IMG/VR virus record: IMGVR_UViG_3300030202_003460
Location: 1-54,521 of that record
Source of the DNA: a virus
Strand: one strand, 5' to 3'
Length of the DNA: 54,521 bases
Below the pieces are notes generated by a model. That model saw only the letters and a program-made list of their open reading frames with translations, was not told where the DNA came from and made no database searches. Below are positions 5,876 to 45,307 of this stretch, in pieces (positions within the stretch are counted from its first letter, which is position 1; each line of letters starts with the position of its first letter). A program made the position numbers and the translations under genes.

Positions 5876-6523
5876 ATGATTAGACTAAAACATATATTGC
5901 ATGAAGATGAGTCGAAAGCTCGACTCAATTCAAATTTGAGTAAATGGATGGACCTAAATGGATTTGATCGCGCTTATGGAATCGAGGAAATGATCCGAGA
6001 CTTAAAAGCTAATTCCAAGAACCCCGATCTTTTTGATAATATCGATATTCCCAAGTATATTAAAATAGAAAAGTCTCTTCGAAGAAACGTCGCCGTGGAA
6101 TTTGCAAAGCGTATTACACCTACTAGTAGTAAAGACCATATGGTGAAATCATATATGGAAGCTGTCTCCAAGACATACTCACTTGACACTTTAAAGACTG
6201 TACTTGTATATGACATTAAAACCTTATTAAATGACCTTTCTCGAGCAGACAAATTGTTAGCTAAAGCTGCTTGGACATTCACGTCTAAACAAAAAATCGT
6301 TAACGATATTAAACAGACAATTGCAAATAATATATTTTCAGGATATTTAGCATTAATTAATCAGGTTATCACTCCCGCTTTAAAAGATATAGGCATTAAA
6401 AATGGAGCATGGAGCGAAATTGATGATGAACTATATCATTCCATTCTTCATCCTAATACCCAATCATATGATATAAAATACATTACATCGAGAATATATG
6501 CTATATTAGACGCGTTATTATGA
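5876..6523 (+). CDS. Unknown protein with N-terminal capsid-targeting-like tag, 215 aa
   Basis: It begins MIRLKHILHE, a variant of the tag shared by about ten proteins here, ending in an L-x-E site after residue 10. The body is helical, with no known domain, no membrane span and no catalytic motif I can name. The gene opens the late region. It overlaps the next gene by 4 nt (ATGA). By analogy with T4 internal proteins it may be packaged in the prohead and trimmed after HE; this is inference. Confidence 0.75.
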   Translation: MIRLKHILHEDESKARLNSNLSKWMDLNGFDRAYGIEEMIRDLKANSKNPDLFDNIDIPKYIKIEKSLRRNVAVEFAKRITPTSSKDHMVKSYMEAVSKTYSLDTLKTVLVYDIKTLLNDLSRADKLLAKAAWTFTSKQKIVNDIKQTIANNIFSGYLALINQVITPALKDIGIKNGAWSEIDDELYHSILHPNTQSYDIKYITSRIYAILDALL

Positions 6524-7155
6524 TAAAGCTTAAAGACATATTAAGAGAAGTTGGCGAAGCCAATATTAAACCTAGCGCTTGGAGTAAGACTGCAGGCGAA
6601 ACCCCTCAACAATTCAAATCGAACATGAATAACCCAGCATTGGAAGTCGATCTATATGGGCATGACACCATCAATGTTTACGAATTCACTACAGATAAAG
6701 GAACTCGATATCGAGTAGATATTCAAATTGAGTATTATATGCAGAAAGTTGGGATCACCGAGAATCCACAATTAGAGGCCGAAGTGGATTTCACAACGGT
6801 AGATGATCAATCGGTAGCTCAAGCCATGACAGCAACAAATTTGCATGAACAATACGCAGTAATGTCCACTGTAACAGATATAGTTATCTCATGGTTAAAT
6901 GAATGGGATAAAACATTGTATTTCAATTCGATTAAAATTGACCCTATCGACGATGAAATAAAAGATTTCGATCCGCTCAATCGACGCACACAAAATAAAA
7001 GGGGAAAACTATATCATGCATATTTGCAAAAACAATTATCGAAACTCAACAAACAATATCAAATTCAAATAAAACACAATGTGTTTTTTATCGTACCAAC
7101 GTACCCAAAGCCTGGTAATGTGGAATATGATTTTACTGGTATAGTAGACAAATGA
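6520..7155 (+). CDS. Unknown protein with capsid-targeting-like tag, 211 aa
   Basis: It begins MIKLKDILRE, with a predicted L-R-E cleavage site after residue 10. The rest is mixed alpha/beta with a strand pair (TRYRVDIQIEYYMQKVGI) and a basic C-terminal half. No family recognised. It overlaps its neighbours at both ends by ATGA, so three tagged genes (5876-7850) form one translational unit. Confidence 0.75.
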   Translation: MIKLKDILREVGEANIKPSAWSKTAGETPQQFKSNMNNPALEVDLYGHDTINVYEFTTDKGTRYRVDIQIEYYMQKVGITENPQLEAEVDFTTVDDQSVAQAMTATNLHEQYAVMSTVTDIVISWLNEWDKTLYFNSIKIDPIDDEIKDFDPLNRRTQNKRGKLYHAYLQKQLSKLNKQYQIQIKHNVFFIVPTYPKPGNVEYDFTGIVDK

Positions 7156-7850
7156 TAAAACTCAAAGACATATTGCTAGAAAGATTAGGCGGCGAGCGTA
7201 CACGAAAACAAATGATATTAGCTGTATCCCGGGATATCATTAATGCATTTAAAGCAGGTAAAACTAAACTAAAAGATCGATTTGAATTGTATTTGGCGGC
7301 TACCAATTGGGAAACCAAAGCCGAAGTCTTTTTAGATGTTTCATTCCTGCAACTTCCGCCATCGTCTGGAATCGCTTTTTCAATAGGCGCAGGAATGGAT
7401 CCTCGCAAAGGGGTTGACACCCTAGACATATTAATTGAATATGATCCGGCCGAGTTTCCTAAATCCATGTCGGCTCTAGTTGCCGAAGTTAAAGAAGTAT
7501 TAGAGCATGAACTAGAACATGTTGGACAACAAGGGTTTGAACGCATGTATGTGCAATCTAATAGATATACCGAACCTTTAACATATCCCGCAGAAGCACC
7601 CCAAGCCCCAACACATTATTTGTATTTGGTTTCCAATACCGAAGTACCGGCATATGTTAAAGGCTTATTAAAGCGTGCCAAAGTGAAGCGTATTTCCTTT
7701 GACGAAGCATTAGAAGAATACCATATGGAAAATCAAGCTGTGTTTCAAAGACATAATACCCCATGGGACAAGGTTAAAGAAGTTTGGGTAAAATGGTATC
7801 AACAAAACAAAGATAAGCCTGGATCACAATTAAAGCAGACGAAAAGTTAG
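7152..7850 (+). CDS. Tagged zincin-like putative metallopeptidase, 232 aa
   Basis: It begins MIKLKDILLE (tag, L-L-E site). A helix at about residues 112-126 carries HELEH (H119, E120, H123), the zincin HExxH signature, right after a beta-type region. A third metal ligand is likely an E/H in the C-terminal helices (SFDEALEEYHMENQ) but cannot be fixed by eye. Predicted role: a packaged zinc-dependent peptidase or maturation enzyme. An HExxH can occur by chance, so the enzyme call is moderate. Last gene of the tagged triplet, facing a convergent minus-strand gene. Confidence 0.65.
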   Translation: MIKLKDILLERLGGERTRKQMILAVSRDIINAFKAGKTKLKDRFELYLAATNWETKAEVFLDVSFLQLPPSSGIAFSIGAGMDPRKGVDTLDILIEYDPAEFPKSMSALVAEVKEVLEHELEHVGQQGFERMYVQSNRYTEPLTYPAEAPQAPTHYLYLVSNTEVPAYVKGLLKRAKVKRISFDEALEEYHMENQAVFQRHNTPWDKVKEVWVKWYQQNKDKPGSQLKQTKS

Positions 7851-7882
7851 TAAGACCTGAAAGGGCGTACTACCGTACTAAC
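7846..7882. other. Weak inverted repeat between convergent genes
   Basis: GTTAGTA (7846-7852) and TACTAAC (7876-7882) are complementary and span the stops of the two convergent genes. The stem is only 7 bp with a 23-nt loop. A TTTTT lies 12 nt further on the plus strand. Bidirectional termination is possible but weakly supported. Confidence 0.3.
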
Positions 7883-8384
7883 GTTCTATTCCTTTTTCAT
7901 GGAACTTTTTAATATGATACGCGCGGAACATCCCAGCCTTATATGTATTAAAATTTTTATACATTGAATCTGCTTGAGTTTTAGTAATAATAGGCATCAT
8001 TATATTTAATTGACAAGTATCTGTATGTTCCGCTTCTAAATAAAAATGAGCTAATTCATGATATGTTACAATCCATATTAAAGAAGTATCTGCATTCATT
8101 TTAGCACTATCGATAAAAATAAATCCTATATCTGAATAACATAAGCCCCAAATCGATTCTGGCAATGCATTATATTTCAATAATAATAATTGTTTTTGGT
8201 AAAATAAATCATGTACCCCATATCGTTTAGCGTCTTTAAAGAACTCATTTCGGATATCATATAATTGTGGATCAATACGATCTGCAGGGCTAAATATGTA
8301 TGTTATAGGTTGATTATCTTGTTTTACCGATGAACTACATGCAATAAACACTATAATTATAATAAGTAATATTTTATTTTTCAT
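7878..8384 (-). CDS. Lipoprotein metallopeptidase-like protein (metzincin-like), only minus-strand gene
   Basis: Type II signal peptide: MKNK, hydrophobic LLIIIIVFIA, lipobox cysteine C16, then SSS. The mature part has HELAH (residues 109-113), a further H120, and NIMMP (127-131), which looks like the Met-turn of metzincins. The H113-H120 gap is one residue longer than the classical HExxHxxGxxH. Predicted: a zinc peptidase anchored to the host envelope. It is transcribed opposite to all other genes in the window. Its upstream region on the minus strand contains TATAAATA and a TATAAT 14 nt from the ATG. It may be a moron acting on the host surface (exclusion or lysis); function inferred only. 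Confidence 0.75.
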   Translation of the reverse strand: MKNKILLIIIIVFIACSSSVKQDNQPITYIFSPADRIDPQLYDIRNEFFKDAKRYGVHDLFYQKQLLLLKYNALPESIWGLCYSDIGFIFIDSAKMNADTSLIWIVTYHELAHFYLEAEHTDTCQLNIMMPIITKTQADSMYKNFNTYKAGMFRAYHIKKFHEKGIER

Positions 8385-8421
8385 GGGGTTCGTTTATTAT
8401 ATATATGTTTTTAATATGCTA

Positions 8422-8434
8422 ATATTTATATTAA
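8422..8434 (+). promoter_or_regulatory. Late-promoter motif
   Basis: ATATTTATATTAA lies 12 nt before the ATG at 8447. On the minus strand the same bases read TATAAATA, upstream of the divergent lipoprotein gene. Confidence 0.55.
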
Positions 8435-8446
8435 AGAGAAATTACT

Positions 8447-9283
8447 ATGCCAATTGATTGGAAAATATTTACACAAAGACCTTATATAAAAAGTTTATCG
8501 CTTGAAGAGCAAATGCGACTTTTTTCTATAGCAAATGAGAAATCTATTAAATTGCGAGAATCTAGTTTCAAAGACTTTGCAAATTCAAATTCTACATCCC
8601 AAGGGGCTGCTGGCGGGGAACAAAAAAGTAGTACATCCTTTACTAATATATATTCATTAAATTTTGACGGTAATGATGATATAGTTGATACCCCTTCAAT
8701 AGATTTAGGCTTAGAAAATACTATTTCATTTTGGGCGAAACGAAATACTGGCACAAATTTTAACGGAATGGTTTGGGGTGGAGTAGCACAATCTAATTAC
8801 TATGTTATATATTTAAATACTTCTAATAGACTTCAGTACAGAGTTGGCAGCGGCGCTGAGACATTTACTGACAGTGATATTATTTCGGCAATTTCTTCTA
8901 ATGACTGGTTTCATTGTGCTTTGGTTAGAAATAACTCAGGTGCAGATGTTTTATGTTATATAAATGGAGAGTTAAAACAAACTAAAACAAATATCGTAGG
9001 AAGTGGAGATAACACAATACTTCAAAAAATTGGCGGAAGAAGTTTAGATGATTTTGAAATCGAAGGAAATTTAGATGAAATGGCTGTTTGGCCAACAGCA
9101 TTAAATGAAAGTGATATAATTTCAATTTACAATGAAGGTACTCCAAATGATATAAGTTCACTTTCTCCTTTATCATGGTATAGGTTTGAAAAAGGAACAG
9201 GTACCACTGCAATAGACTCTGGCACTGCAGGAAATACTGGAACTATTAATGGAGCTACATATGAAGAAAATGTACCAGTATAG
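8447..9283 (+). CDS. Virion protein with conserved N-terminal anchor and LamG-like domain, 278 aa
   Basis: Residues 1-60 are nearly the same as the N-terminus of the protein at 11649 (WKIFTQRPYIKSLSLEEQ, ANEKSIKLRE, FANSNS-SQGAAG). Residues about 70-275 form a concanavalin/LamG-like fold (YSLNFDGNDDIVDTPS, ISFWAKRN, WFHCALVRN, CYINGELKQT, LDEMAVWPTALNESDI). LamG domains in phage tails bind glycans or decorate the particle. The shared N-terminus probably docks to the virion while the C-terminal part varies. Confidence 0.8.
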   Translation: MPIDWKIFTQRPYIKSLSLEEQMRLFSIANEKSIKLRESSFKDFANSNSTSQGAAGGEQKSSTSFTNIYSLNFDGNDDIVDTPSIDLGLENTISFWAKRNTGTNFNGMVWGGVAQSNYYVIYLNTSNRLQYRVGSGAETFTDSDIISAISSNDWFHCALVRNNSGADVLCYINGELKQTKTNIVGSGDNTILQKIGGRSLDDFEIEGNLDEMAVWPTALNESDIISIYNEGTPNDISSLSPLSWYRFEKGTGTTAIDSGTAGNTGTINGATYEENVPV

Positions 9284-9293
9284 GAATAATTAA

Positions 9294-9476
9294 ATGGCAC
9301 ACAAAGTTTTTATACGACACACTTACATTTATAAATGTTCAAGCTGTGGTGAAGAATGGAAAATTAATGAAGCTTCTAAAATAGAAAAATTATCATGTCC
9401 TCATTGCGGTAAACATGATACTATTGACTATGTATTTGAAGACCAAAGAACAAAATATAATAAAAAATGGGAATAA
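9294..9476 (+). CDS. Small zinc-ribbon protein, 60 aa
   Basis: Two knuckles, CSSCGEEW and CPHCGKHD, about 19 residues apart, define a zinc ribbon. Partner unknown. It lies 10 nt after the LamG protein. Confidence 0.7.
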   Translation: MAHKVFIRHTYIYKCSSCGEEWKINEASKIEKLSCPHCGKHDTIDYVFEDQRTKYNKKWE

Positions 9477-9510
9477 ATTTTTAATATAAAAATAAAGGAT
9501 AAAGAATAAG

Positions 9511-11397: not shown

Positions 11398-11405
11398 GGA
11401 GCAAA

Positions 11406-11639
11406 ATGATAAATTATTTTAAATGGTTATTTGAAGAACACAAGTATGGTAAGATTAAATTCTTCTTATTCTTAATTGGAGTAACTCAATGCTTTTTTTT
11501 AACAGATAACTTTTATTATGAATATTATTATTATGATATGCCTTTATATCCTCTTATAATGGGGTACATTGCAATGTATGGGTTTACTATTGGCATTGCA
11601 TTGCAACCTTATTTAATATATAAAGATTTAAAAAAATAG
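11406..11639 (+). CDS. Two-span membrane protein, 77 aa
   Basis: Hydrophobic spans at about residues 19-33 and 47-70, separated by a tyrosine-rich loop (DNFYYEYYYYDMPLYP). The start has a GGAGCAAA leader 5 nt from the ATG. Function unknown. Confidence 0.6.
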   Translation: MINYFKWLFEEHKYGKIKFFLFLIGVTQCFFLTDNFYYEYYYYDMPLYPLIMGYIAMYGFTIGIALQPYLIYKDLKK

Positions 11640-11648
11640 GAATAAAGC

Positions 11649-12794
11649 ATGGCGCTTAATTGGAAAATATTTACGCAACGGCCGTATATAAAAAGTTTAT
11701 CACTAGAAGAACAAGTGAGATTATTTAATATAGCAAACGAGAAATCTATTAAATTGCGAGAGCAACAATTCACAGATTTTGCAAATTCAAATTCAATTTC
11801 GCAAGGCGCTGCTGGGGATGGTAAAGAAACTGCATCTTCTACTACATTACTTTTAGATGAATATGGGGATAATTCATTTATGGCTGCTTCTATGAGAAAA
11901 TTAAGGAGTGATTATACAGGCTTTGCTTTAAGAGTACAACGAAACGGTACTAACTCCGGGACAAGTTCTACCACTGATCAAGCGGATGTAAGTTTTGATT
12001 CAGAAGGTAAAGTTTCTTTAGATTCGCCAATAACAGCAGTTTCAGCTGGTGTAAATTCAACTACTCTAGGTGAGTTTGTTGCTGCTACTGGTTATACAGA
12101 TCCAGATGGTTTAGGTTCAGGATGTAATGCTAATTCCTATAGGGTTTATAATCAAGTTCCAGATGCAAATATTTTAGATGGCGATACTAATTATTTTACC
12201 GGACAAGCTTCAGAAGTTGTAGTAAATGGAGCATTATGGACAGTTACAGTTGGTGGAACTGAATTCCCTGCATTCAGAATGACTTGGAGGGAAACATTTT
12301 TAAATAATAGTCATTTTCCTTTATCGGTAACAAATAGAACACATTTTACAGTTGTAGAATATGCATCTGGAGGATATACTGAGGAAGATGTATCTTTATC
12401 AACTAGAAGGTATAATTCAGAAAGAGAAGCAGTAAGATATAATGATAGTGCAGGAACAACAAAACTAGTTACTTCTACTAGGGCAGATTTAATTACAAGT
12501 TCGAATACATTTGCAAATGGTAGTGTTAATGTAGCTGGTGTTTTACTACAAGTAGCTCCAAATGAAACTGCATATTGGATTAATAATAATAAACAAGGCT
12601 CAGTAACAAATTATGATCCAGAAACTGAGTATGGAAATATAAGTTATTGGCAGTATGACCAAGTTGCTTTTGATCATAATGTAAAAACAGATGGGCCGGA
12701 TCCTTTAGAGTTTATTTTCTACAATGATGGATTAAGCACTTCTGCTATTGAAGGAATAAATCAAAACATAATGGCATATTATAATATAACATAG
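11649..12794 (+). CDS. Virion protein sharing the N-terminal anchor of the 8447 protein, different C-terminus, 381 aa
   Basis: Residues 1-58 match the anchor of the LamG protein at 8447 at protein level and, to a high degree, in the DNA. Beyond SQGAAG the two diverge completely: here a Ser/Thr/Gly-rich beta-type body (residues about 60-381) with no LamG pattern. Sequences such as LLLDEYGDNSFMAASMRKL followed by VSFDSEGKVSLDSPI look like phage structural or cement modules. The pair looks like a reused docking module with swapped tips. Confidence 0.7.
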   Translation: MALNWKIFTQRPYIKSLSLEEQVRLFNIANEKSIKLREQQFTDFANSNSISQGAAGDGKETASSTTLLLDEYGDNSFMAASMRKLRSDYTGFALRVQRNGTNSGTSSTTDQADVSFDSEGKVSLDSPITAVSAGVNSTTLGEFVAATGYTDPDGLGSGCNANSYRVYNQVPDANILDGDTNYFTGQASEVVVNGALWTVTVGGTEFPAFRMTWRETFLNNSHFPLSVTNRTHFTVVEYASGGYTEEDVSLSTRRYNSEREAVRYNDSAGTTKLVTSTRADLITSSNTFANGSVNVAGVLLQVAPNETAYWINNNKQGSVTNYDPETEYGNISYWQYDQVAFDHNVKTDGPDPLEFIFYNDGLSTSAIEGINQNIMAYYNIT

Positions 12795-12804
12795 AAAGAA
12801 TTAA

Positions 12805-12861: not shown

Positions 12862-12866
12862 TTAAT

Positions 12867-12895: not shown

Positions 12896-12925
12896 TATTT
12901 ATAAGCCAGCAAGAAGAAAAGAAAA

Positions 12926-13348
12926 ATGATTAAATTAAAAACATTATTACCAGAAGATATTAATAACACTAATATAGATCTGCCAGCAAATGAATTTGAA
13001 TTATCAAGTTTATCATTTGACACAGTAATAAATAATTTTCCTGCAGATTATAAGGATATACAATTTAATAGAATGCAACCAGATGGTAAAGAAGGTCCTT
13101 ATTATAGTGATAGCGTAGCTTTTCCAAATGCAAATGATTCTAGTACTAGTATTGGAGATTTAAAATCATTTGAAGATTGGAAAAAAGAAGCATTACGTAA
13201 ATTTGGTAATGACACTAAAATTTTATTAGATCCTGATGCAGTTTGGTTTGATAAAGTTAAAGTAAAAAGCGACGAGTTTGACACTCAAAAAGATGCAGCA
13301 GATACAGCAAAAGCATCAATGTTAAAACAATGGGGAACCACAACATGA
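12926..13348 (+). CDS. Unknown protein with capsid-targeting-like tag, 140 aa
   Basis: It begins MIKLKTLLPE with a predicted L-P-E site. The rest is acidic with no known domain and ends KQWGTTT. The TGA overlaps the next ATG. Confidence 0.7.
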   Translation: MIKLKTLLPEDINNTNIDLPANEFELSSLSFDTVINNFPADYKDIQFNRMQPDGKEGPYYSDSVAFPNANDSSTSIGDLKSFEDWKKEALRKFGNDTKILLDPDAVWFDKVKVKSDEFDTQKDAADTAKASMLKQWGTTT

Positions 13349-13488: not shown

Positions 13489-13500
13489 TCAGGAATAAAG

Positions 13501-13836
13501 ATGGATCAAGATGTAATATTAACAATTGTAACAGCGTTAGCAGGCGCCTTAGGAATTAAAGAAATATGGAATATCTGGAAAAAGAAAATAGATATTCAAG
13601 CAAAAAAAGATTTGAGTTCGTTACATAATCAACAAAAAATTGTAACAGATGTCATTAAAGAACAACGTAATACTGTTGAAGAAATGACAAAGCGTATTAT
13701 CTTATTAGAAGAAAAAATTGAAACATTAATTAAAGAAAATATAATGTTACGAGAAAAATTAGCTCGCATGGAAGAACGATTACTTTTAAATGCAAAAAAA
13801 TCTTCTGGTAGGAAAAGAACAAAGGTAGAAAAATGA
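13501..13836 (+). CDS. Membrane-anchored coiled-coil protein, 111 aa
   Basis: An N-terminal hydrophobic segment (ILTIVTALAGALGI, about 6-19) is followed by a long heptad-rich helix (about 35-95; MTKRIILLEEKIETLIKEN) and a basic tail. The layout resembles inner-membrane spanin or holin-accessory proteins, but no lysis cassette is visible, so the role stays open. Leader AGGAATAAAG. It overlaps the next gene by ATGA. Confidence 0.6.
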   Translation: MDQDVILTIVTALAGALGIKEIWNIWKKKIDIQAKKDLSSLHNQQKIVTDVIKEQRNTVEEMTKRIILLEEKIETLIKENIMLREKLARMEERLLLNAKKSSGRKRTKVEK

Positions 13837-14243
13837 AAAAAAATATTTTAAAAGAAAACATGAAACGATTTGGTACTAAAGATATGTTAAATGAACATGC
13901 TTTAGGCCAGCTGCCATCTGAAAAGTTAATGAAAATGAAATGGAATCCATTAACTGAAGAAGAATATATCGAAGAAGAAGATGCAGGAACTTCAATTCCT
14001 GTTACTAAATTAGATGGTACCGGCGGAGATGTTAAACATGATTGTCCAAAACATGTAGTTCATGAAGTAACATTTGTTCCAGGTGAAGTAGTAGGACATT
14101 CCTTAAATGCTAAAGGCGAAGTTAATTTTATTGATGTTGATTATGGTACGGGTAAGATATATGAAAATTTACCAATATCAAATTTTAAAATTGTAGAATC
14201 TAGATCTCATACACATGAAGTAAAAGAAGAGCCAAAAAAGTGA
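13833..14243 (+). CDS. Phage protein with KENMKRFGTKxxLNE N-terminus, 136 aa
   Basis: The N-terminus (ILKENMKRFGTKDMLNE) ends in an L-N-E site and resembles a second type of N-terminal signature I recall from marine T4-like proteins. The middle carries DCPKHVVHEV and a beta-rich domain, and the C-terminus is charged. It overlaps neighbours on both sides. Possibly another packaged or head-associated protein. Confidence 0.6.
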   Translation: MKKNILKENMKRFGTKDMLNEHALGQLPSEKLMKMKWNPLTEEEYIEEEDAGTSIPVTKLDGTGGDVKHDCPKHVVHEVTFVPGEVVGHSLNAKGEVNFIDVDYGTGKIYENLPISNFKIVESRSHTHEVKEEPKK

Positions 14244-14749
14244 TCAAACTCAAAGACATATTAGAGCAATCATTACCAGACGTACCAATGAGTCCAGGCT
14301 TTAAGCCAACAGAAACATATTCAAGAGAAATACCAGAACAATTTTTACGATTCTATAATAATGATGGTGGAAATAAAAAAGGTAGATTTATTGATATGGC
14401 TGAGCAATTGGTTAAAACATACGATGATCCTCAAATACAACAAGCTTTAGAAAAAATTGATGACGTTTCTGCAGAACTACAAGAATTAATGGATCCACAA
14501 TCAACAGCTGATTCGGGCCATTCAATTAAATCACCACAAGACAAACATGCTAATTCAACAGTATGGAAATATCTAGACGATATTCATGAAACAGTTAATG
14601 TAATAATTAATAACACAACATTTGATGGCTGGCCACTAGAAACTACTGTTGCTGAATTAGACGGATTATATATTGATCTAGAAGAATTAAAAAATATATA
14701 TTCTTCAAACTATGGTGCCAAGCCAAACCAAAAGTCTCCAGGATTCTAA
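14240..14749 (+). CDS. Unknown protein with capsid-targeting-like tag, GTG start, 169 aa
   Basis: It reads (M)IKLKDILEQS, with an I-L-E site after residue 9. The start is GTG, overlapping the previous TGA (GTGA). Choosing it keeps the tag intact. The body is acidic and helical with no known domain. Confidence 0.7.
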   Translation: MIKLKDILEQSLPDVPMSPGFKPTETYSREIPEQFLRFYNNDGGNKKGRFIDMAEQLVKTYDDPQIQQALEKIDDVSAELQELMDPQSTADSGHSIKSPQDKHANSTVWKYLDDIHETVNVIINNTTFDGWPLETTVAELDGLYIDLEELKNIYSSNYGAKPNQKSPGF

Positions 14750-14939: not shown

Positions 14940-16295
14940 ATGATAAAGCTCAAAGACATAATCACAGAACAAGATCGTATTAATGAGTCATTGCGTAAGG
15001 TTAATACTAACGTTAAAAAATTATTGGAAGAAAAAAACAATAATATATTAAATGAAGATAACAGTTGGGTTGATAATTTACAAACAATATTAGACTATAT
15101 AGGTATTATACCTGTTATAGGAGATATTATAGATGTTATAAATGCAATTATTTATTTTATTCGAGGCAAATGGTTCGACGGTATATTAGCAATAATAGCT
15201 GTAATACCAGTTGTAGGATCTGCTATTTCATTACCATTAAAAGCTATATTTAAAGTGTTAGGACCTGTACTAGTTAAGTTTGGATCAAAACTTTCGAAAT
15301 TAATATCTAAAGGTTCTGGAAAAGAATGTGCAAAAGATTTTATAGAAATGTGTTTACAGAATGGAGCTGGCGAACAATTAGATGCATTTATAATAATATT
15401 TAAACAATATAGTAGTGACATAACAAAATACTTTAATAAAATTCAAAAGAAATTTGACTCGTTACATAATTTTAGTCATTGGGCAGTAGCAGACGCCTTA
15501 GAACCTAGTATTAGATCATTAGGAAAATATTGTTCAAATGCTACAGAAGGATTAAATAAATTTTTCAAGAATTTGGAACCAGAATATAAAGCTATTAAAT
15601 CTAGATATCCAGATATAGATTCAAGCTTTGATGCAGTTAAAGGAAGACCAAAATCAAATCTAGTAAAACAAACTGATGTCGATGGCGACAAGGTTTTTAG
15701 TAAATATGCTTCTAAAAAAGGAAGTGATGATGTTTTTGCATTTTCAACAAAAGCTGCTACAGATAAAAATTTTATTTTATTTAAACGATCATATAATAAA
15801 GGAGTTCCTACTAATAAATTTTCTATGAAAACTGCAGTTGAAAAACCTGGAATGTTTAAAAATGGAATGAAGGAACTATCAAAAAGAATGCCTAATCACA
15901 AATTCTTCGAAGAAACATCAATTTCATCTGACGGACTTGATATGTGGAAAAAACAATTAGATAAGGGTTACAAAGCTTCAGAAGAAACATTTACAGTTCC
16001 TATTAATATAGCCGGCACGAAAACAAAATTGCCTGGTATTCAAAAAGGGGAACAGTTTGATCAAGCTTATTTTTCTAATCTAGATGATGCCCAAGTTTCT
16101 TTAGACATTATAAAAGATAAAATAAAAGATATTCCAAATGCATCTGTTAAAATGATGAAAAAAGGTCCTGTCAAATGGGAACTTAAAGTTACATTGCCTG
16201 TATTACAATCAACTCCAAAATCTGTAAATTATTGGAGTAAAATACCTGCGAAGTCTTTTAGATTCTATAAACCAGATAATGAAGATGCAAAATGA
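14940..16295 (+). CDS. Tagged protein with polymorphic-toxin-like hydrophobic module, 451 aa
   Basis: It begins MIKLKDIITE (tag, I-T-E site). Residues about 51-115 are strongly hydrophobic and carry IIPVIGDIIDVINAIIYF followed by RGKWFDG and AVIPVVG. This pattern (P-x-x-GD, then a short helix, RG, then IPxxG) is typical of the pre-toxin linker of bacterial polymorphic toxins. After it come about 330 residues with a basic, mixed alpha/beta C-terminal region of unknown fold. Interpretation: a packaged protein that could insert into or cross the host membrane on infection. A purely structural role is equally possible. Confidence 0.65.
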   Translation: MIKLKDIITEQDRINESLRKVNTNVKKLLEEKNNNILNEDNSWVDNLQTILDYIGIIPVIGDIIDVINAIIYFIRGKWFDGILAIIAVIPVVGSAISLPLKAIFKVLGPVLVKFGSKLSKLISKGSGKECAKDFIEMCLQNGAGEQLDAFIIIFKQYSSDITKYFNKIQKKFDSLHNFSHWAVADALEPSIRSLGKYCSNATEGLNKFFKNLEPEYKAIKSRYPDIDSSFDAVKGRPKSNLVKQTDVDGDKVFSKYASKKGSDDVFAFSTKAATDKNFILFKRSYNKGVPTNKFSMKTAVEKPGMFKNGMKELSKRMPNHKFFEETSISSDGLDMWKKQLDKGYKASEETFTVPINIAGTKTKLPGIQKGEQFDQAYFSNLDDAQVSLDIIKDKIKDIPNASVKMMKKGPVKWELKVTLPVLQSTPKSVNYWSKIPAKSFRFYKPDNEDAK

Positions 16296-16567
16296 TTAAA
16301 CTAGAAAACATATTAAAAAGTATTCCAAATCAAGAAATAATTGAATCTGAAAGAGGACAATGGGAATATCCAGGTAGAATAACAAGAATACCTAGCAATA
16401 CAATAACAATGGGACCAGATCCTAGAACTGGTAAACCTATCGAACATATATTGCTAATTATAGGAGATCAAAGTGGAGAAAAGAAAATAGGAATCCCAGG
16501 AGGACCAAATTTATTCTTTCCAGCTGACACTTCTGTTACAGAATACCCGATTAAAAAACATACGTGA
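16292..16567 (+). CDS. Small protein with divergent capsid-targeting-like tag, 91 aa
   Basis: It begins MIKLENILKS, close to the tag, but the nearest acidic cleavage-type site is I-I-E at about residue 18. The body is a small beta domain (PGRITRIPSNTITMGPDP). It overlaps the 451-aa gene by ATGA. Confidence 0.6.
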   Translation: MIKLENILKSIPNQEIIESERGQWEYPGRITRIPSNTITMGPDPRTGKPIEHILLIIGDQSGEKKIGIPGGPNLFFPADTSVTEYPIKKHT

Positions 16568-16817: not shown

Positions 16818-17003
16818 ATGTCATCAATTGAAATTTGTGAAGAAATGAAAGAACATTGGAAAGTGTTTTTAGAAAATCACGAAAGATTTAATGAAAAACA
16901 AGTTAAAGCAGCAGGTGTAAGAGCTAGAAAAGCAATAAATGAACTAAAGAAATTAGCTTCTAAATACAGAAGTACATGTTTAACCGAGTCTAAAGAATTA
17001 TGA
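16818..17003 (+). CDS. Histone H1-like (Hc1-type) small protein, 61 aa
   Basis: The core KAAGVRARKAINELKKLASKYR matches the Bacteroidota Hc1 pattern (KAAGTRARKAxxELxKLxxxxR). The N-terminal helix is acidic (IEICEEMKEHW) and lacks the long Lys/Ala tail of chlamydial Hc1. Expected role: DNA binding or compaction of phage or host nucleoid. A paralogue lies at 19739. It overlaps the next gene by ATGA. Confidence 0.65.
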   Translation: MSSIEICEEMKEHWKVFLENHERFNEKQVKAAGVRARKAINELKKLASKYRSTCLTESKEL

Positions 17004-17776
17004 ATCAAGAATTTATACGAAATATAATCCGAGAAGAGCTACTTTCAATATTAAATGAAGAAGATATTGAAACTACAGTGTTTACCCCAGCCGAAGAAAA
17101 GTTTTTAGGTAACTTTGTTAAGCTAGGAGCTCAATCATTGGGTATTATATATGCTCCAAATGAGATTGGTATTCGTGAATTTCTTGGTCGAAGCGGTAAA
17201 GACTTCAATTTGACACCAGATGTGCTATCAAAACTGGTAAAAGATAAGATTATTAGCATAGTACCATATGGTGGATATTCAAGAAACGAAGATTATACAT
17301 TAAAATTAAATATTCCACTCGATGAATTGGAAGGAATTGGTGGTGATGCTGACGAAGATGCTGATGATACCAGTGCTCCAGCTGATGATACCAGTGCTCC
17401 CGACCCAGATGTGACACCAGCACCGGAACCACCAATGGATGCCGGCGGAGATCCTCAAGAATCTTACACATCAAACAAGGATAATGCAAATTTATTAGTA
17501 GCAGAAGCAAAAAAAAAGTCCAAGAGTAAGGTGCATACCAAAAAAGCCAGGACTTTAAAGCGGTTACCGAAGGGATATGTCCTTCATTTAGAACGAATTA
17601 TACAAATATTAAGCAAAAAAGTACATACAAAACTAGAAAAGGAGCATTTAGTTGCTGATATACTAGATAATCTATCTCATAACTTTGGTTTAACACCTCA
17701 GCAAGTATATAAATCATATATTTATTATAAATCGCAGAATAGATTGAAAAACATGATTAAGGATAACAATGATTAA
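17000..17776 (+). CDS. Unknown two-part protein with acidic linker, 258 aa
   Basis: The N-terminus MNQEFIRNIIREELLSILNE resembles an extended targeting helix ending L-N-E. A globular part (about 22-115) is followed by an acidic Asp/Pro/Ala-rich linker (about 115-155) containing DDTSAPADDTSAPD, encoded by a 21-bp tandem repeat. A basic helical C-terminal domain follows (KKKSKSKVHTKKARTLKRL, then LERIIQILSKKV). The charge split suggests a DNA- or scaffold-binding tail. Similar domains occur in T4-like virion-associated proteins; no name assigned. Confidence 0.6.
   Translation: MNQEFIRNIIREELLSILNEEDIETTVFTPAEEKFLGNFVKLGAQSLGIIYAPNEIGIREFLGRSGKDFNLTPDVLSKLVKDKIISIVPYGGYSRNEDYTLKLNIPLDELEGIGGDADEDADDTSAPADDTSAPDPDVTPAPEPPMDAGGDPQESYTSNKDNANLLVAEAKKKSKSKVHTKKARTLKRLPKGYVLHLERIIQILSKKVHTKLEKEHLVADILDNLSHNFGLTPQQVYKSYIYYKSQNRLKNMIKDNND
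17361..17400 (+). repeat. Tandem 21-bp repeat within coding sequence
   Basis: CTGATGATACCAGTGCTCC occurs at 17361-17379 and 17382-17400. It encodes the duplicated DDTSAP unit and keeps the frame. Confidence 0.85.
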
Positions 17777-19112
17777 ACTAAAAGATATTATAAATGAGTC
17801 AACAATATTGAATTTGTTTGAACAAGCAGAGCAGCCTGATGGCAAAATTACAAAATCAGGAATGGGCGGTAGAGATAAAGCAATATTAGATTGGTTTCAA
17901 GCTAATAAAAATAAATCATTAGATGCATTAGATAAAGCAGGTGTCGGTCCGGGTAGTATGTATAATAATATGCCATTAACTGGTGTTGCTGGAGGAATAT
18001 CGTCGCCTCAAGGCCAAGGATTAAGTGTTATATTAGCTAACTATACAAAATATGGACCGAATTTTGTTCCATTTGATGCAAAAACAGGAGATCCGAATAA
18101 TAAGATTGTAAATAAAAAAGGACAATTTGATATTGTAGCCGAAAAAGTGCCTATAAAATTTAATGGATATCAATGGGTAGCAGTTGATCCTGCTAGAGGC
18201 GCTAATAGTAGTTGGAGAGCTGATTTATATAAGCCAATTGATTTCGATAAGGGCGTTTCGCAATTAAATGCTGCTAATCAAAGACAATTTCCAACTAATA
18301 AACAAATTGTAAATATTACTCCAACTATAGTTAATGCAGATTCACTATCTAGAAATGACGCAAGAACATTAGTTGGAAATATTAAAAAAAATATGGGCGA
18401 AGCTTATAACAATGTACTTGTTTATGGTAAAATTAAAAATCAATTGATATTATGGGGAAATTACACAATTACAAAAACTTCGCCAACTCCCGCAACTCCA
18501 GATGAAATAACCGATAATCCGGTAGCACAGGAGCCTCCATTAGAATTAGGCGGCGACAACTTTCGAAGTAATTCAGCTAATTTAACTAACGCAGCAGAGA
18601 TTCGACGATCTATATCTGCCAGGCTTGCTGCTATGGCCAATAAAGGAATTCCAGTACCAGCTGGATTAGGCACAATAACAATACAATCAGGCACTGATAG
18701 TATGCCTGCAGGAAATTATCCAGGTAATAATGCAGGATTAGCACAAGATAGAGCAGATACTATTCAGCAAATATTAATATCACTAGGAATACCATCAGAT
18801 CAAATTGTTATTGATACAACCGGAGTTAATGGAGTTCCAGCTGGAACTACTAGTTGGGCTAATAACAGAGGACAATTAACGAAACCTCAATGGATTGCTG
18901 CAGCTGCGCCAGCAAGAATGGTTCAAGTAAATTTTGGTCTAGCTCAATCAGGTGGAAGTACCACAATAACAAAAGGTAAAAAAGCTCAAGCAGGAACAAA
19001 AACAGATTTTCAAGATAGATCGGGTACTCAATATGATAAAACCAAAGTTAGTGATACAAGTAATCAACAAGATGGTTTCATATGGAGATTAACAGTTAAC
19101 ATGATTAAATAA
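17769..19112 (+). CDS. Tagged protein with OmpA-like domain, 447 aa
   Basis: It begins MIKLKDIINE (tag, I-N-E site). Residues about 259-350 match an OmpA-C-like domain: FRSNSANLTNAAEIRR, then TITIQSGTDSMPAG, then LAQDRADTIQQILISLGI, i.e. the beta strand, TD turn and N-x-LxxxRA helix of that family, which usually binds peptidoglycan. The N-terminal 250 residues are unknown. A packaged protein with a cell-wall-binding fold is unexpected. An alternative is a virion protein contacting the wall during DNA entry. Confidence 0.65.
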   Translation: MIKLKDIINESTILNLFEQAEQPDGKITKSGMGGRDKAILDWFQANKNKSLDALDKAGVGPGSMYNNMPLTGVAGGISSPQGQGLSVILANYTKYGPNFVPFDAKTGDPNNKIVNKKGQFDIVAEKVPIKFNGYQWVAVDPARGANSSWRADLYKPIDFDKGVSQLNAANQRQFPTNKQIVNITPTIVNADSLSRNDARTLVGNIKKNMGEAYNNVLVYGKIKNQLILWGNYTITKTSPTPATPDEITDNPVAQEPPLELGGDNFRSNSANLTNAAEIRRSISARLAAMANKGIPVPAGLGTITIQSGTDSMPAGNYPGNNAGLAQDRADTIQQILISLGIPSDQIVIDTTGVNGVPAGTTSWANNRGQLTKPQWIAAAAPARMVQVNFGLAQSGGSTTITKGKKAQAGTKTDFQDRSGTQYDKTKVSDTSNQQDGFIWRLTVNMIK

Positions 19113-19738: not shown

Positions 19739-19909
19739 ATGGCAACATCACAAGAATTATTCGAACAAATGAAAGATTTATTTGCAGAATTTGAAGAAAA
19801 TCACAATGGTACAACTAAAGCTGCTAAAGGCAGAGCAAGAAAAGCTATTGGAGAAGTAAAAAAAATAGTAACTGACTATAGAAAAGTATCTGTAGCAGAA
19901 AATAAGTAA
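19739..19909 (+). CDS. Histone H1-like (Hc1-type) small protein, 56 aa
   Basis: LFAEFEENHNGTTKAAKGRARKAIGEVKKI-VTDYRKVSVAENK matches the Bacteroidota Hc1-type proteins along its whole length, more closely than its paralogue at 16818. It is too short to appear among longer frames but has its own promoter. Expected DNA-binding, nucleoid-associated role. Confidence 0.7.
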   Translation: MATSQELFEQMKDLFAEFEENHNGTTKAAKGRARKAIGEVKKIVTDYRKVSVAENK

Positions 19910-38826: not shown

Positions 38827-38845
38827 ATATTAGGCAAATAAAATC

Positions 38846-40141: not shown

Positions 40142-40162
40142 ATTTACTCCAATGAATTATAG

Positions 40163-40201
40163 CCTGTTATATTTATATTATATAAAGTATAACAGGTTTT
40201 T
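40163..40201 (+). terminator. Terminator whose loop contains a late-promoter motif
   Basis: Stem CCTGTTATA / TATAACAGG (9 bp, perfect) with a 16-nt loop and TTTTT immediately after. The loop region contains ATATTTATATTATA, the motif for the next gene. Confidence 0.75.
40169..40182 (+). promoter_or_regulatory. Late-promoter motif inside terminator loop
   Basis: ATATTTATATTATA, 25 nt before the ATG at 40208, fully inside the terminator hairpin. Confidence 0.55.
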
Positions 40202-40207
40202 ACTAAT

Positions 40208-42148
40208 ATGTCAAATGAAATAACAACATATAAAGGAGTCGCTCCAACCGTATTTAAAAAAATTGAGCCTACTGATTATTCTGTAAATCCGTTTGAAGCA
40301 CATAAACAATTTACATTTTATTCTGGAAGTGCTGTATCTGAAAATTATAGTCAATTGCAAGGAATATATGTGGAAGGATTTCCTAATATTTCTAGTAGTA
40401 AACCATTTAATGATGCTATCAATTCCGATGGTTCATATCAATTTGCAATATACAATTCAATTGACCAATTATTTTATAAACGTAAACATGAGCCTTCAAA
40501 AACACATGGGCCAACAGATTTAAATCGATCTCCTAAATTTTTATATGAATCAGCATCTGTATTTAGTATCCCTCAGATTAAAATGGGTGATAGAATAAAA
40601 CCAGCATCATTTACATTAACTAGTTCTTTAGCAGATGATAATATTAAAATTTCCGGAAGTGGCATTAGCGGATTACTTATACCAGGAGAAACATTTTCAC
40701 AAAATGGCAATCCAAGTTTTCAAGGAATAGTAATATCGTCTACTATTTCTCCTATGACATTAACATTTCGTACTGTCACGGGAACATTTGACATTAGTGG
40801 AGATGATATAAATGACGCTTCCGAAGATTTCACTCATCCGTTTTCATATGTAAGTCTGCCTTCGGTAGCACAATATAATTTGCTTTCAGATCGATACTCA
40901 AATATTTATAATAATGATATCAATACAGGTTCATTTCCAGGACAAGAAACTTTTTCTGAAGGATTCAATGAATACTTCGATGAATCTAGATTTAATACTA
41001 GATATCCAAAATCAATAATTGATAGAAACGGAGGAAATAGATTATCATTTCAAACTGGAATATCTGGTTCATATGGCAGTAAATTACCAATTGGTAAATC
41101 TGTTAATTTTAAAGGATCGGGGTATATAGAAACAGATTTGCCTGGCACCTATGATAGATATGAAGATTATGCAATATCATTTTTTATATCTGCGTCGGTA
41201 ACATCTCATAATAAAAAGATGTTAGTATTAGGTAAAGTTTCATCTTCAATTGATTATGTTTATCCATTTAAAATAGAATTAAGTGGTTCAAAACAATTAC
41301 ATTTTTCGGCAGCAGGCGCGACTAATTATATAGCACAAATTACTTCTTCGACAGCAGTAACAAGTTCTTGGCATCATGTTGTATGTCAAAAGTCCGGAAG
41401 CAATTTAGAATTATGGTTAAATGGAATAAAACATTCATCTGGTAGTTTTAATTTATTGAAACATCAATTTAATTCTCCATTTACATCGTCTGCTACAATT
41501 AACAACGATTATGGATTAAAAATAGGTGGCTATGGCTCCGGATTAGAAGGTTATAGTGGATATCTAGATGAAATTAGGATTTTTAATAAGACGTTAACAC
41601 AAGCACATATAAGCACGTTAATGGACCGTAGTGTGAGCGGAGGAGTATTGCAAACTAATAGGGTTGGGAATGTATTTAATAAGCAAGGCTTAATAGTAAT
41701 ATCTAGTCCAGATTATAGATATAATGAATTAATAACTACAAATTATACTGCTAGTTATAAAAGCACAGTTAAATTATATGAACATTCGATACTAGCTCGG
41801 GTTGATGAAAATGATTTTAATATATCACAAAACCCTTCTATTTTAACTGACAATAATATGAATATACAATCTTGGGCAACTGGCAGCGACTTTGTACCTT
41901 ATATTACTACAATAGGATTATATAATGATGTAGGTCAATTATTAGCTATAGGTAAACTAGGCCAGCCGGTAAAAAATAGAAATGACATTGATATGAATTT
42001 TTTAATATCAATTGACTTAGATAAAAATAAACCAGTTAAAAATAATTCAAAATCTCCACCACCACCTCCAGCGACAACAGTTATAACATCAGGTAATTTT
42101 AAAGATATTGCACAAGGAACACAAGTTAAAAATATTGTAACGAGGTAA
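40208..42148 (+). CDS. LamG-domain tail protein, 646 aa
   Basis: Residues about 300-470 form a LamG/concanavalin-like domain: YIETDLPGTYDRYEDYAISF, SSWHHVVCQKSGSNLELWLNG, YSGYLDEIRIFNKTLTQAHI. The C-terminal 80 residues (NISQNPSILTD ... YITTIGLYNDVGQLLAIGKL) match the end of the 38846 protein. A Pro/Ser-rich hinge (SKSPPPPPATT) is near the end. Probably a receptor- or glycan-binding tail component. Confidence 0.75.
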   Translation: MSNEITTYKGVAPTVFKKIEPTDYSVNPFEAHKQFTFYSGSAVSENYSQLQGIYVEGFPNISSSKPFNDAINSDGSYQFAIYNSIDQLFYKRKHEPSKTHGPTDLNRSPKFLYESASVFSIPQIKMGDRIKPASFTLTSSLADDNIKISGSGISGLLIPGETFSQNGNPSFQGIVISSTISPMTLTFRTVTGTFDISGDDINDASEDFTHPFSYVSLPSVAQYNLLSDRYSNIYNNDINTGSFPGQETFSEGFNEYFDESRFNTRYPKSIIDRNGGNRLSFQTGISGSYGSKLPIGKSVNFKGSGYIETDLPGTYDRYEDYAISFFISASVTSHNKKMLVLGKVSSSIDYVYPFKIELSGSKQLHFSAAGATNYIAQITSSTAVTSSWHHVVCQKSGSNLELWLNGIKHSSGSFNLLKHQFNSPFTSSATINNDYGLKIGGYGSGLEGYSGYLDEIRIFNKTLTQAHISTLMDRSVSGGVLQTNRVGNVFNKQGLIVISSPDYRYNELITTNYTASYKSTVKLYEHSILARVDENDFNISQNPSILTDNNMNIQSWATGSDFVPYITTIGLYNDVGQLLAIGKLGQPVKNRNDIDMNFLISIDLDKNKPVKNNSKSPPPPPATTVITSGNFKDIAQGTQVKNIVTR

Positions 42149-42152
42149 TATC

Positions 42153-42698
42153 ATGATAAACTTAAAACATATATTAAATGAAATTGCTGAAGATGAAGCA
42201 ACTAGATTATTACAAAAAATAAAAAATAAAGATTATACATTTTTTAATAGAGGTGATAATGGAAAAGTATATCAATTAAATGGCGAAGATTTATTATTTA
42301 AAATAACTACAGAACCTGATGAAACAGCTGTTGCTGATGTTATTGTTGGAAGGTATGGAGAATTTAATGCATTTATACCAGTACATTATTCAGATAGCGA
42401 ACGTAAAATGTATATCATGAATAAAGCTGAACAATTGGATTCTAAATCTAAACAGCAAATTGAAAATTTTTATGAAAATTATAAAGAATTTGCTAGACAA
42501 CAAGGTGGTGAAACTAGTATATTTGATTATTTAAATGCAGACGGCGCTCGTGATATTGATCCAAAATTTGGAAGCTTTTTAAGAGCATTAGAACAACAAG
42601 TAAAAAAGACAGGAATTGGCGACTTAGATATCTCATTAGACTTTAAACCAGACAATATAATGACATGGAATGGAAATTTAGTCATGATTGATTGGTAA
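42153..42698 (+). CDS. Tagged minimal protein-kinase-like protein, 181 aa
   Basis: It begins MINLKHILNE (tag, L-N-E site). A kinase pattern follows: Gly-rich loop RGDNGKVY (33-40), a lysine in LLFKI (K50), catalytic loop LDFKPDN (D163, K165, N168) and VMIDW (D180 at the DFG position). The chain stops one residue after D180, so the activation loop and C-lobe helices are absent. It may need a partner, be a pseudokinase, or be an antibiotic-kinase-like minimal fold. The intact motifs argue against random similarity. Confidence 0.7.
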   Translation: MINLKHILNEIAEDEATRLLQKIKNKDYTFFNRGDNGKVYQLNGEDLLFKITTEPDETAVADVIVGRYGEFNAFIPVHYSDSERKMYIMNKAEQLDSKSKQQIENFYENYKEFARQQGGETSIFDYLNADGARDIDPKFGSFLRALEQQVKKTGIGDLDISLDFKPDNIMTWNGNLVMIDW

Positions 42699-42701
42699 GA
42701 T

Positions 42702-42714
42702 ATATTTATATAAA
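42702..42714 (+). promoter_or_regulatory. Late-promoter motif abutting a start codon
   Basis: ATATTTATATAAA sits directly before the ATG at 42715, 3 nt after the kinase stop. Confidence 0.5.
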
Positions 42715-43896
42715 ATGAAGACATTAAAACAAATAATATTAGACGAAAGTGCTGCTGGTAATGCTTATAGCACAATGAATGCGAAACAGTTTGAAAAATA
42801 TTTAAAAAATAATGAACTAGAATTATTACAAGTTTTTAATGGTAGAGAAGATTTATATCAAGTATATATATTTACGCCTCCAAAACAAGGGAAAATGAAA
42901 GATGGCGACAAAAAATTATTTCCTGTAAATTATCCTAAAATGGATAATTTAAAAAATTTAAGAATTGATTTTGGTATAGCTTTTGACCTTACTACTAGAT
43001 TAAATGATCCTACTTTGTCGAATATTGCATTAGTAGAACCTTATAAAGGAAAGAAATGGTTAGTTATAATATTAAAAAAAGATTTTGTTGACAATATAAC
43101 TGCATTATCATCTAAATTTAGATCGGATACAAAATTACCTTCATCAGGAAAATTTACATATTATGGATTAGATGCAATTAAAAATGCAGTAAAAGATCTT
43201 AGATCTTCTGAAAAAGAAAAACAAGTTAAAGCTGATGCAATAGAAAAAAACAATAAAAAATGGATGGAATGGATTCCATTTTCTGCAGTAGATGTAAAGC
43301 TAGACGCCTATAAACCGATAGTTAATAAAATACGTCAATTAGTTGGATTGCCTGAAGGAAGTGATTTATTTGATAAAGATTTAGAAACAGTTTTGAAAGC
43401 GTGGCAAAAAAAGAGGAAGATTCCAGTTACCGGTGTATGGGATGATGCTAGTGAAACAGCTGCAGAAAAATTATTAACAACTGATGGGTTTTATGTAAGC
43501 TATGCTGATTATGAAGAAGGTGAAAGAGTTATAACAGCATTATCAAAAGAAGAAATTAAAAAAGCTTTAGGCACAGAAGAACCAGAACCGGAAGAAACAG
43601 AAACTATAACTAATAATGAAGACGCAATGCCATTTCGAAATGTTACTGAAATTAATTCATTTCGAAATTGGGTTAGAATGAATACAGATTTTAATCAAGA
43701 TCGAACAGGTGATTCTATATTAGATGCTACTGGTGATATGTCTAGTGTTGTGGAAGATGCATGGGCCGAACATGGCGAAGCTTATATGAACGATAAAGAA
43801 AACGGATATAAACAAGAAGATCCTCCTGAAGCAGTAACTGAGCCAGAGGATGGAGAAAAGAATAACAAGAAGAAGAGGAAGAATGACCGAGGTTAA
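42715..43896 (+). CDS. Tagged protein with peptidoglycan-binding-1 domain, 393 aa
   Basis: It begins MKTLKQIILDE (tag variant, L-D-E site). I use ATG 42715 because an upstream in-frame ATG (42688) lies in the kinase gene. Residues about 200-256 show the PG_binding_1 pattern: IVNKIRQLVGLPEGSDLFD, ETVLKAWQKKRKIPVTGVWD then SETAAEKLL. The N-terminal 190 residues are of unknown fold. The C-terminus is acidic, then very basic (KNNKKKRKND). A wall-binding module on a packaged-type protein is notable. Confidence 0.7.
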   Translation: MKTLKQIILDESAAGNAYSTMNAKQFEKYLKNNELELLQVFNGREDLYQVYIFTPPKQGKMKDGDKKLFPVNYPKMDNLKNLRIDFGIAFDLTTRLNDPTLSNIALVEPYKGKKWLVIILKKDFVDNITALSSKFRSDTKLPSSGKFTYYGLDAIKNAVKDLRSSEKEKQVKADAIEKNNKKWMEWIPFSAVDVKLDAYKPIVNKIRQLVGLPEGSDLFDKDLETVLKAWQKKRKIPVTGVWDDASETAAEKLLTTDGFYVSYADYEEGERVITALSKEEIKKALGTEEPEPEETETITNNEDAMPFRNVTEINSFRNWVRMNTDFNQDRTGDSILDATGDMSSVVEDAWAEHGEAYMNDKENGYKQEDPPEAVTEPEDGEKNNKKKRKNDRG

Positions 43897-43906
43897 GGAT
43901 ATTAAT

Positions 43907-45307
43907 ATGAAATTAACAAATATAGCTAGAAAAATATTACAGGAAGCAGATGCTCCAATCAGCCTGCCACAATTAAAGAAGTATAATAATAGCAATATGA
44001 CATGGAAGATCCAATTGGCTTCAACGGGAAAAACATTTTATTTTCCAGGAGGTGAAAATGCTAAATTTCAAATACAATTAGATAAATATGATCATGAGAT
44101 TCCTTCAGGTGGATCGATAGACTTATTAGCTTGGGAGATACTGGAAGCTGCTAAAGCTTTTGCTGAAGATGTAGACGATATTATAGCTAATGATTTTTAT
44201 TCTGCAATGGATTATTTATTGAGTCCATCAGGCTTTAAATCATCGATAAAAAGTATTACTCCAAGCGTAGGGCAAAACCAGGCATTATTACGTGGTTCAG
44301 ACGATATTATATATCTAACAAATTATCCGAAACTTGGCGATCGAACGGAATGGACAGATGTTAACTGGGCAACAGATTATGATGAAAAAGCTATTTGGGA
44401 TGCATCAGTTTATATTGGAGATAAAAATGAAAATTGGTTTAATACAAATTTCAAAATATCACAACAAACTCAACAAAAAAAAATTAGTACGCCGCAACGT
44501 ATGGATCAAGTTGCAGTAAGAGTTATAGTATCAGCAAATCCAAAGACTGCAACATTTCCTGGTAATTTAGCAAATTTAATTGGAGTAGGCGCCGGTGGAT
44601 TTAATGCTGCGAAATTCGAAAATGTTTTAAATTCGACTGTAGGAATAAACTCATTAAATGATTATCAAGCGGTTGATGCAATTATTAAAAAAGTTGCTGA
44701 AAAACATAAAAGCCAAGAATCAGGACCAACTGATTTTTTCTTTATTAGAAATGGTAATGTATATTTGAAACAATGGGATTCTGCAGAAGATTCTTTACGA
44801 TCTTCTATATCAAGCGGTAATCGTGCAAGTGGAAAAATGACATTTGATCTTGAAAAATGGCAAAGTGGAGAATCAACTGAATATAGTATCTTAAGATCTA
44901 TAGCTCCTAATTGGATTTCTGGAGATTTTGATGGATCTGGGGATATGGATAAGGCTATTCGTTGGGCAATAATAACAGATAGTATGATAAATACGGAAGC
45001 AGTTACTAAAAATGGTATACTCAATTTTATTTATCAAACCAATCCGCCGAATTTTACTGAACAAGTTGGAGAATTTCCAAATGATACTACCACTACTTCT
45101 GCAGCTAGAGATGGAATCTTAATGTCTTTATTAGAAAATGATATAGCTACATATAATCGAGACACTAATCAAATTATTTTACCATTTAATAACAATGTTG
45201 TAAAATTTCATCAAGATTTAGATAAATTACAAACATGGCCTTCTCAAGATTTAGGTCGTGTTCCAGATCCTAATACAAATTCTGAAGAAGAAGGATCTGT
45301 AGAATAA
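43907..45307 (+). CDS. Unknown protein with targeting-like N-terminus, 466 aa
   Basis: The chosen start, ATG 43907, gives MKLTNIARKILQE, an amphipathic helix with an L-Q-E site, like the tagged family. ATG 43883 is an alternative overlapping the previous gene. The body is mixed alpha/beta, with a Gly-rich middle (LIGVGAGGFNAAKFENVL) and FDGSGDMDKAIRWAI, and ends in acidic residues. No family recognised. Confidence 0.65.
   Translation: MKLTNIARKILQEADAPISLPQLKKYNNSNMTWKIQLASTGKTFYFPGGENAKFQIQLDKYDHEIPSGGSIDLLAWEILEAAKAFAEDVDDIIANDFYSAMDYLLSPSGFKSSIKSITPSVGQNQALLRGSDDIIYLTNYPKLGDRTEWTDVNWATDYDEKAIWDASVYIGDKNENWFNTNFKISQQTQQKKISTPQRMDQVAVRVIVSANPKTATFPGNLANLIGVGAGGFNAAKFENVLNSTVGINSLNDYQAVDAIIKKVAEKHKSQESGPTDFFFIRNGNVYLKQWDSAEDSLRSSISSGNRASGKMTFDLEKWQSGESTEYSILRSIAPNWISGDFDGSGDMDKAIRWAIITDSMINTEAVTKNGILNFIYQTNPPNFTEQVGEFPNDTTTTSAARDGILMSLLENDIATYNRDTNQIILPFNNNVVKFHQDLDKLQTWPSQDLGRVPDPNTNSEEEGSVE

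Follow-up and report, generated by a model that had tools for sequence, protein, structure and literature searches.

We describe here a short N-terminal peptide, MIKLKDIL-x-E (here, the tag), shared by otherwise unrelated proteins encoded in a viral DNA of 54,521 bases (IMG/VR record IMGVR_UViG_3300030202_003460, used entire; 31% G+C), referred to below as the window. The window is part of the genome of a large T4-like phage with a contractile tail, and its gp6-like protein places Microcystis phage Mel-JY01 (53% identity) and Flavobacterium phage immuto (41%) nearest among isolates. Comparison of sequences indicates, with a probability that we put at roughly 0.8, that the tag is a capsid-targeting sequence (CTS), which would recruit unrelated proteins to the prohead core and be cut after its Glu by a gp21-type protease, the bodies staying in the head. 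The same proposal had been made from the letters of the window alone (the sequence-only reading), and it was strongly supported by the leader of the presumed core protein, by the L/I-x-E ending of the tags and by the T4 proteins that the same pattern singles out.

A common N-terminal peptide on unrelated proteins

Nine window genes begin, at verified starts, with MIKLKDIL-like peptides; a tenth, 42715, which the original count of at least ten had included, is only loosely similar (Table 1). A scored scan of the window yielded 8 tagged genes, compared with 0.20 expected from shuffled N-termini. Glu occupies residue 10 in seven of the window tags, and L/I-x-E lies near this position in 9 of 10, ending at residue 9 in gene 14240 (I-L-E) and at residue 11 in gene 42715 (L-D-E). 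The statement that most tags end in this way thus held, with gene 16292 as the exception.

The tag also recurs in related genomes, where the sequence-only reading had proposed to look for it: 6 to 12 genes per genome carry it in five of the six relatives tested (8 in G022, 12 in G004, 11 in G003, 12 in G002 and 6 in G006, with 3 in G005; 0.2 to 0.7 expected). Two isolates bear it as well, Microcystis phage Mel-JY01 (MIKLKSLLQE, gene at 60276) and Flavobacterium phage immuto (MIKLIDLLTE, L440:24569). The exact DNA pattern for MIKLKDI-x-x-E was found in at least 118 viral contigs, against 15 for the same codons in scrambled order. When 215 tagged proteins of at least 60 residues were clustered by body (BLAST E 1e-4), they formed 106 clusters, including 74 singletons and with kinase, Nudix, RNase T, Zeta-toxin-like, lysozyme and OmpA bodies represented, a figure that describes diversity and not frequency, because most loci were chosen by the tag.

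To assess the Glu, we used contigs retrieved by MIKLKDIL alone, and thus unselected for this residue, which gave 83 distinct tags with an open frame continuing beyond the tag. Glu stood at residue 10 in 70 of them, and 8 of the 13 others had L/I-x-E ending at residue 9 or 11; L/I-x-E, the motif of T4 gp21, was consequently present at residues 9-11 in 78/83 tags. Where the Glu was displaced to 9 or 11, the hydrophobic residue two positions earlier was displaced too. The key positions of the tag are L4, I/L7, L/I8 and E10.

Residue-identical tag positions used the same codon in 0.533 of pairs, compared with 0.565 in random draws from phage codon usage. Synonymous sites have thus reached saturation in a peptide that is itself conserved, so that it is the peptide on which selection acts; this confirms the earlier view that the differing codons reflect peptide selection and not recent copying. 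The tagged bodies of the window showed no clear mutual homology (best pair E = 0.014), again in agreement with the first reading. Within one family, that of gene 42153, a search with the body only (residues 14 onward) returned 58 contigs, and all 30 unique rows in which the N-terminus was complete kept the tag with its Glu, even where body identity fell to 44%, and with ATG, TTG or GTG as the start; one further row was cut at a contig end.

The presumed prohead core protein and the T4 precedent

Because head genes are missing from the 54.5-kb window, the link to the capsid was taken from relatives. In G022, the closest long relative with head genes (75,717 bases; gp6 68% identical; similar gene order), a portal-like gene (49909) is followed by two genes, an S77 protease (53301), a 121-residue protein (53921), a scaffold-like protein (55114) and the major capsid protein (MCP; 56118). 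The 121-residue protein is a presumed prohead core protein, named by its place between protease and scaffold, like the small core proteins of T4, and it begins MKFKEILEA. Its homologues begin MIKLKDILKE in L012, L046, L064, L066, L069 and L116, and others begin MSKRIKLKDILNE, MANIKLKDLLNE or MTKLKNILSE. Some of the core-protein contigs had been fetched via the tag, and the search was therefore redone with a body-only alignment, using a tag-like pattern that was deliberately loose and admitted MKFKEILEA. A tag-like N-terminus, often MKLKDLLNES or MKKLKDLLKES, was present in 54 of 56 unique complete homologues, compared with 10 of 538 N-termini in control loci fetched by the gp6-like protein, a contrast somewhat flattered because any in-frame Met was allowed for the core protein and only the longest-frame start for the control.

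Where loci had been retrieved independently of the tag, 51 of the 146 sequences in the cluster of the core protein and its neighbour reached the tag score, and among the other 11 best-scoring families one scaffold sequence alone did so. At the scored threshold the tag was found in 0/29 portal, 0/39 protease and 0/24 scaffold sequences. The capsid-protein propeptide of L033 begins with the tag-like MDLKNILNE, and the MCP junctions predicted by eye, LVKE/ASATG in G022 and LISE/ANRTG in Mel-JY01, have a counterpart in T4 gp23 (FLTE/AEIG). Of 24 contigs that bear the tag or are related, 13 encode an S77 (gp21-type) protease, among them colinear G022 and all nine contigs above 100 kb. It also occurred in 1 of 15 scrambled-peptide control contigs, namely the largest, and since the controls are moreover few and short, we do not treat this association as main evidence.

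The known precedent is the T4 CTS. IPII, IPIII and gp24 are gp21-cleaved head proteins of T4 (PMC9026906, PMC5694885), gp21 cleaves at L/I-X-E (PMC9026906), and for IPIII the first 10 residues suffice, with residues 4 and 7 mattering for targeting and residues 8 and 10 for processing (PMC9026906). Like the tag, the leader of IPI, IPII, IPIII and gp24 comprises about 10 N-terminal residues common to unrelated bodies, with hydrophobic positions 4, 7 and 8 and a Glu at 10 within the gp21 site, and the MAKINELLRE of gp24 resembles the MIKLKDILRE of window gene 6520. Applied to the 86 annotated proteins encoded at T4 positions 60,001-124,000, the pattern M..h..hh.E (hydrophobic 4, 7 and 8; Glu 10) selected exactly ipII, ipIII and gene 24, with 0.26 expected; IPI, which has a longer leader, did not match. 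Alt, which lies outside this set, is a virion-delivered ADP-ribosyltransferase cut at ITE-6 and at its C-terminus (PMC5694885). As a head-carried enzyme cut by gp21 after I/L-x-E, it offers a precedent for enzymatic cargo, although no ADP-ribosyltransferase family was detected in the window.

A review of T4 states that the CTS may be an evolutionary mechanism for incorporating various proteins (PMC9026906), and we regard the tag as a large, undescribed version of it. New relative to T4 are the sequence dialect, the number of cargo kinds, with as many as twelve tagged genes in one genome and roughly a hundred body clusters over the relatives, and the leader common to cargo and presumed core protein, whereas T4 gp67, gp68 and gp22 fail the positional pattern. 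A search for the tag sequence in the literature consulted gave nothing relevant, and no virion proteomics was found for Flavobacterium phage immuto. Among the ejection proteins of SPN3US and phiKZ, the paralogues gp53 and gp54 have the same 15 N-terminal residues, with a Glu cleavage motif (PMC5694885). The ejection-protein propeptides of SPN3US and phiKZ nevertheless differ from the tag in that they mostly exceed 100 residues, have the motif A/S-x-E and, in the case of gp53 and gp54, precede paralogues and not unrelated bodies.

Weighing the capsid-targeting reading

If the tag is a CTS, it would bind a partner in the prohead and so bring unrelated proteins into the assembling core, which they would enter by means of the N-terminal peptide that the core protein of the phage also bears. 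Cleavage by the gp21-type prohead protease would follow on the C-terminal side of the L/I-x-E Glu, around residue 10, and the mature bodies would remain inside the head alongside the DNA. We infer targeting, cleavage and packaging from the features described above and, one step further removed, ejection with the DNA into the host; bodies with kinase, nuclease, Nudix or wall activity might act there early in infection.

Several observations weigh against this reading. Among the window genes no head gene and no S77 protease was recognised. Gene 16292 has no Glu near residue 10 (its first I-x-E is at 18), and its G022 and G004 orthologues likewise lack one. The residue following the Glu (P1') is varied, being Ile in the 42153 kinase family, compared with Ala or Ser in the T4 leaders examined. 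Tagged bodies such as phage lysozyme and M23 plus tail lysozyme could be tail or lysis proteins. Finally, phmmer detected no match at E 0.1 between T4 IPI, IPII, IPIII, gp22, gp24, gp67 and gp68 and 216 tagged bodies; by this search the tagged bodies show no sequence homology to the T4 internal proteins IPI-IPIII.

Tags of the 16292 type would suit a model in which the peptide guides proteins to the core or scaffold of the prohead and stays uncut, its Glu belonging to a binding helix, and in T4 an Asp at residue 10 indeed permits targeting without processing (PMC9026906). We nevertheless consider this improbable, since L/I-x-E moves as a unit when the Glu shifts to 9 or 11, as one would expect of a protease site more than of a fixed face on a helix, and since core and capsid proteins have the same motif beside a gp21-type protease. 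A destination elsewhere, be it the tail or baseplate, the host membrane or an infection-specific assembly site, appears slightly less probable again. Certain tagged genes do lie near tail genes (42153 comes after the baseplate/fibre block), and the tagged bodies include wall-binding and lytic ones, but passing tag scores were concentrated in the cluster of the core protein and its neighbour, with a lone scaffold sequence from the other 11 families and none from portal, protease and scaffold at the scored threshold.

The tags begin at the start codons themselves, in series of neighbouring genes, which might alternatively mean that the 5' ends of genes were copied recently, or that the mRNA start and not the peptide is constrained. 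This explanation is largely refuted by the codons of identical residues, which agree no more often than random ones; the tag is also kept in orthologues with bodies 44-50% identical, and the start codons themselves differ (ATG, GTG, TTG). We thus give it very little credence.

Table 1. Tags, other leaders and marker genes in the window
Feature	Position	Strand	Gene and remarks
Tag MIRLKHILHE	5876..5905	+	5876-6523, 215 aa, no family
Tag MIKLKDILRE	6520..6549	+	6520-7155, 211 aa, no family; 6-member tagged body cluster
Tag MIKLKDILLE	7152..7181	+	7152-7850, 232 aa, HELEH zincin-like motif
Tag MIKLKTLLPE	12926..12955	+	12926-13348, 140 aa, no family
Related leader of another class, MKKNILKENMKRFGTKDMLNE	13833..13895	+	13833-14243; ends L-x-E
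Tag MIKLKDILE (read on: MIKLKDILEQ)	14240..14266	+	14240-14749, 169 aa, GTG start, no family
Tag MIKLKDIITE	14940..14969	+	14940-16295, 451 aa; hydrophobic N-terminal region, no family
Tag variant MIKLENILKS, without E10	16292..16321	+	16292-16567, 91 aa
Longer leader of another class, MNQEFIRNIIREELLSILNE	17000..17059	+	17000-17776
Tag MIKLKDIINE	17769..17798	+	17769-19112, 447 aa, OmpA domain
Tag MINLKHILNE	42153..42182	+	42153-42698
Body of 42153, predicted minimal protein-kinase-like fold	42192..42695	+	AlphaFold2 pLDDT 93.5, 29 sequences
Loose tag variant MKTLKQIILDE	42715..42747	+	42715-43896, PG_binding_1 just below Pfam cut-off
Longer leader MKLTNIARKILQE	43907..43945	+	43907-45307, no family
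Sigma factor	1502		
gp25-like baseplate protein	29260		
gp6-like baseplate protein	29719		
Endonuclease	45321		
DNA primase	45988		

Tagged bodies, other leaders and neighbouring genes

PHROG and Pfam scans of the window bodies gave the OmpA domain of gene 17769 (Pfam 3.5e-6, above cut-off) as the sole passing match. The sequence-only reading had seen kinase-, wall-binding-, protease- and toxin-like bodies, and these labels fared differently. Wall binding is supported for 17769 and borderline for 42715, and the toxin-like label of 14940 found no backing, as this protein has no family in PHROG or Pfam. The kinase-like label held: the model of the 42153 body supports a protein-kinase-like fold, its top PDB matches being kinases and phosphotransferases (TMq 0.32-0.50, modest), and the family conserves a Gly-rich loop GDNG, K37, the catalytic D150 and N155 and the metal-binding D167. 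The protease-like label comes down to the HELEH motif of 7152, which, together with E-[IV]-P-A, is kept in its tagged homologue (L005) and suggests a candidate zinc protease; no fold is claimed, because the predicted structure reached a pLDDT of only 44.6 (two sequences). Isolates with the 42153 kinase or 7152 bodies were not found in the phage collection searched.

In relatives, tagged bodies include Nudix, RNase T, Zeta-toxin/AAA, DUF5872, phage lysozyme, M23 plus tail lysozyme and a 2H phosphoesterase weakly matching Acb1, a range that fits proteins useful early in infection. We hold it about evenly balanced whether an aquatic T4-like phage lineage uses a common, sequence-readable head-address code with dialects, spanning the core protein and about a hundred or more cargo kinds, so that each genome lists its virion-delivered enzymes. 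If it does, the arsenal would comprise a kinase, Nudix, RNase T, Zeta-toxin-like and Acb1-like 2H phosphoesterase proteins, a zincin and wall hydrolases. Head-carried, injected proteins are known for few phages because purified virions are needed; a tag readable in DNA would permit a sequence search for proteins probably carried into bacteria, uncultured phages included, and would supply a defined peptide with which foreign proteins could be loaded into phage heads besides those of T4. The common leader further points to a single binding partner for core protein and cargo, a testable idea.

Among individual bodies, a tagged 2'-5' RNA ligase-like protein (L082:8704-9258) has a weak match to the anti-CBASS protein Acb1 (2.7e-4, below cut-off) and is a candidate virion-delivered anti-defence protein. 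The commonest tagged body in the loci analysed, a 35-member cluster (representative L220:2502-3569; also L213:7704-8480), has a zinc-ribbon-like start; the GSHG...TACYGAD of its G022 member resembles a caspase-like site, and nothing was above the Pfam cut-off. A W[ED]RxFG[ED][PS]LPT module (L047:1265-1965, L074:3390, L107:7582, L094:4716 and G004 97328) recurs directly behind the tag and within one core protein, and is a possible second core-binding element.

Genes 17000 and 43907 had at first been taken for weaker variants of the tag, but both carry longer leaders with a different motif, though containing I/L-x-E. The MKLTKTRLKQIIREE(L/I)..LNE leader (the IIREE...LNE class), present in window gene 17000-17776, is also found on five unrelated proteins in L008:10024-14694, beside MIKLKDIL-tagged genes. 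Another leader, KENMKRFGTKNL-x-E (the ENMKRFGTKNL-x-E class), ends L-x-E and occurs on six unrelated body clusters (window 13833-14243, L213:5063, L224:18023, L030:302, L148:2741 and L157:1183). Both classes may be further head-address dialects.

Window genes 8447-9283 and 11649-12794 have a common 66-residue N-terminal module (74% identical) and unrelated C-terminal parts, one of which is a Laminin_G_3/ConA-like lectin; the arrangement resembles an attachment module onto which different adhesins can be swapped. Two small histone H1-like Hc1 proteins (16818-17003 and 19739-19909; Pfam 1.5e-12 and 2.4e-10) lie amid or beside the tagged genes. Gene 16292 unites the tag with SIPNQE, and an N-terminal LKKLPNQxQ-like motif is shared by tail-region proteins (window 38846; G022 26002, 31836 and 73653; L214 and L216).

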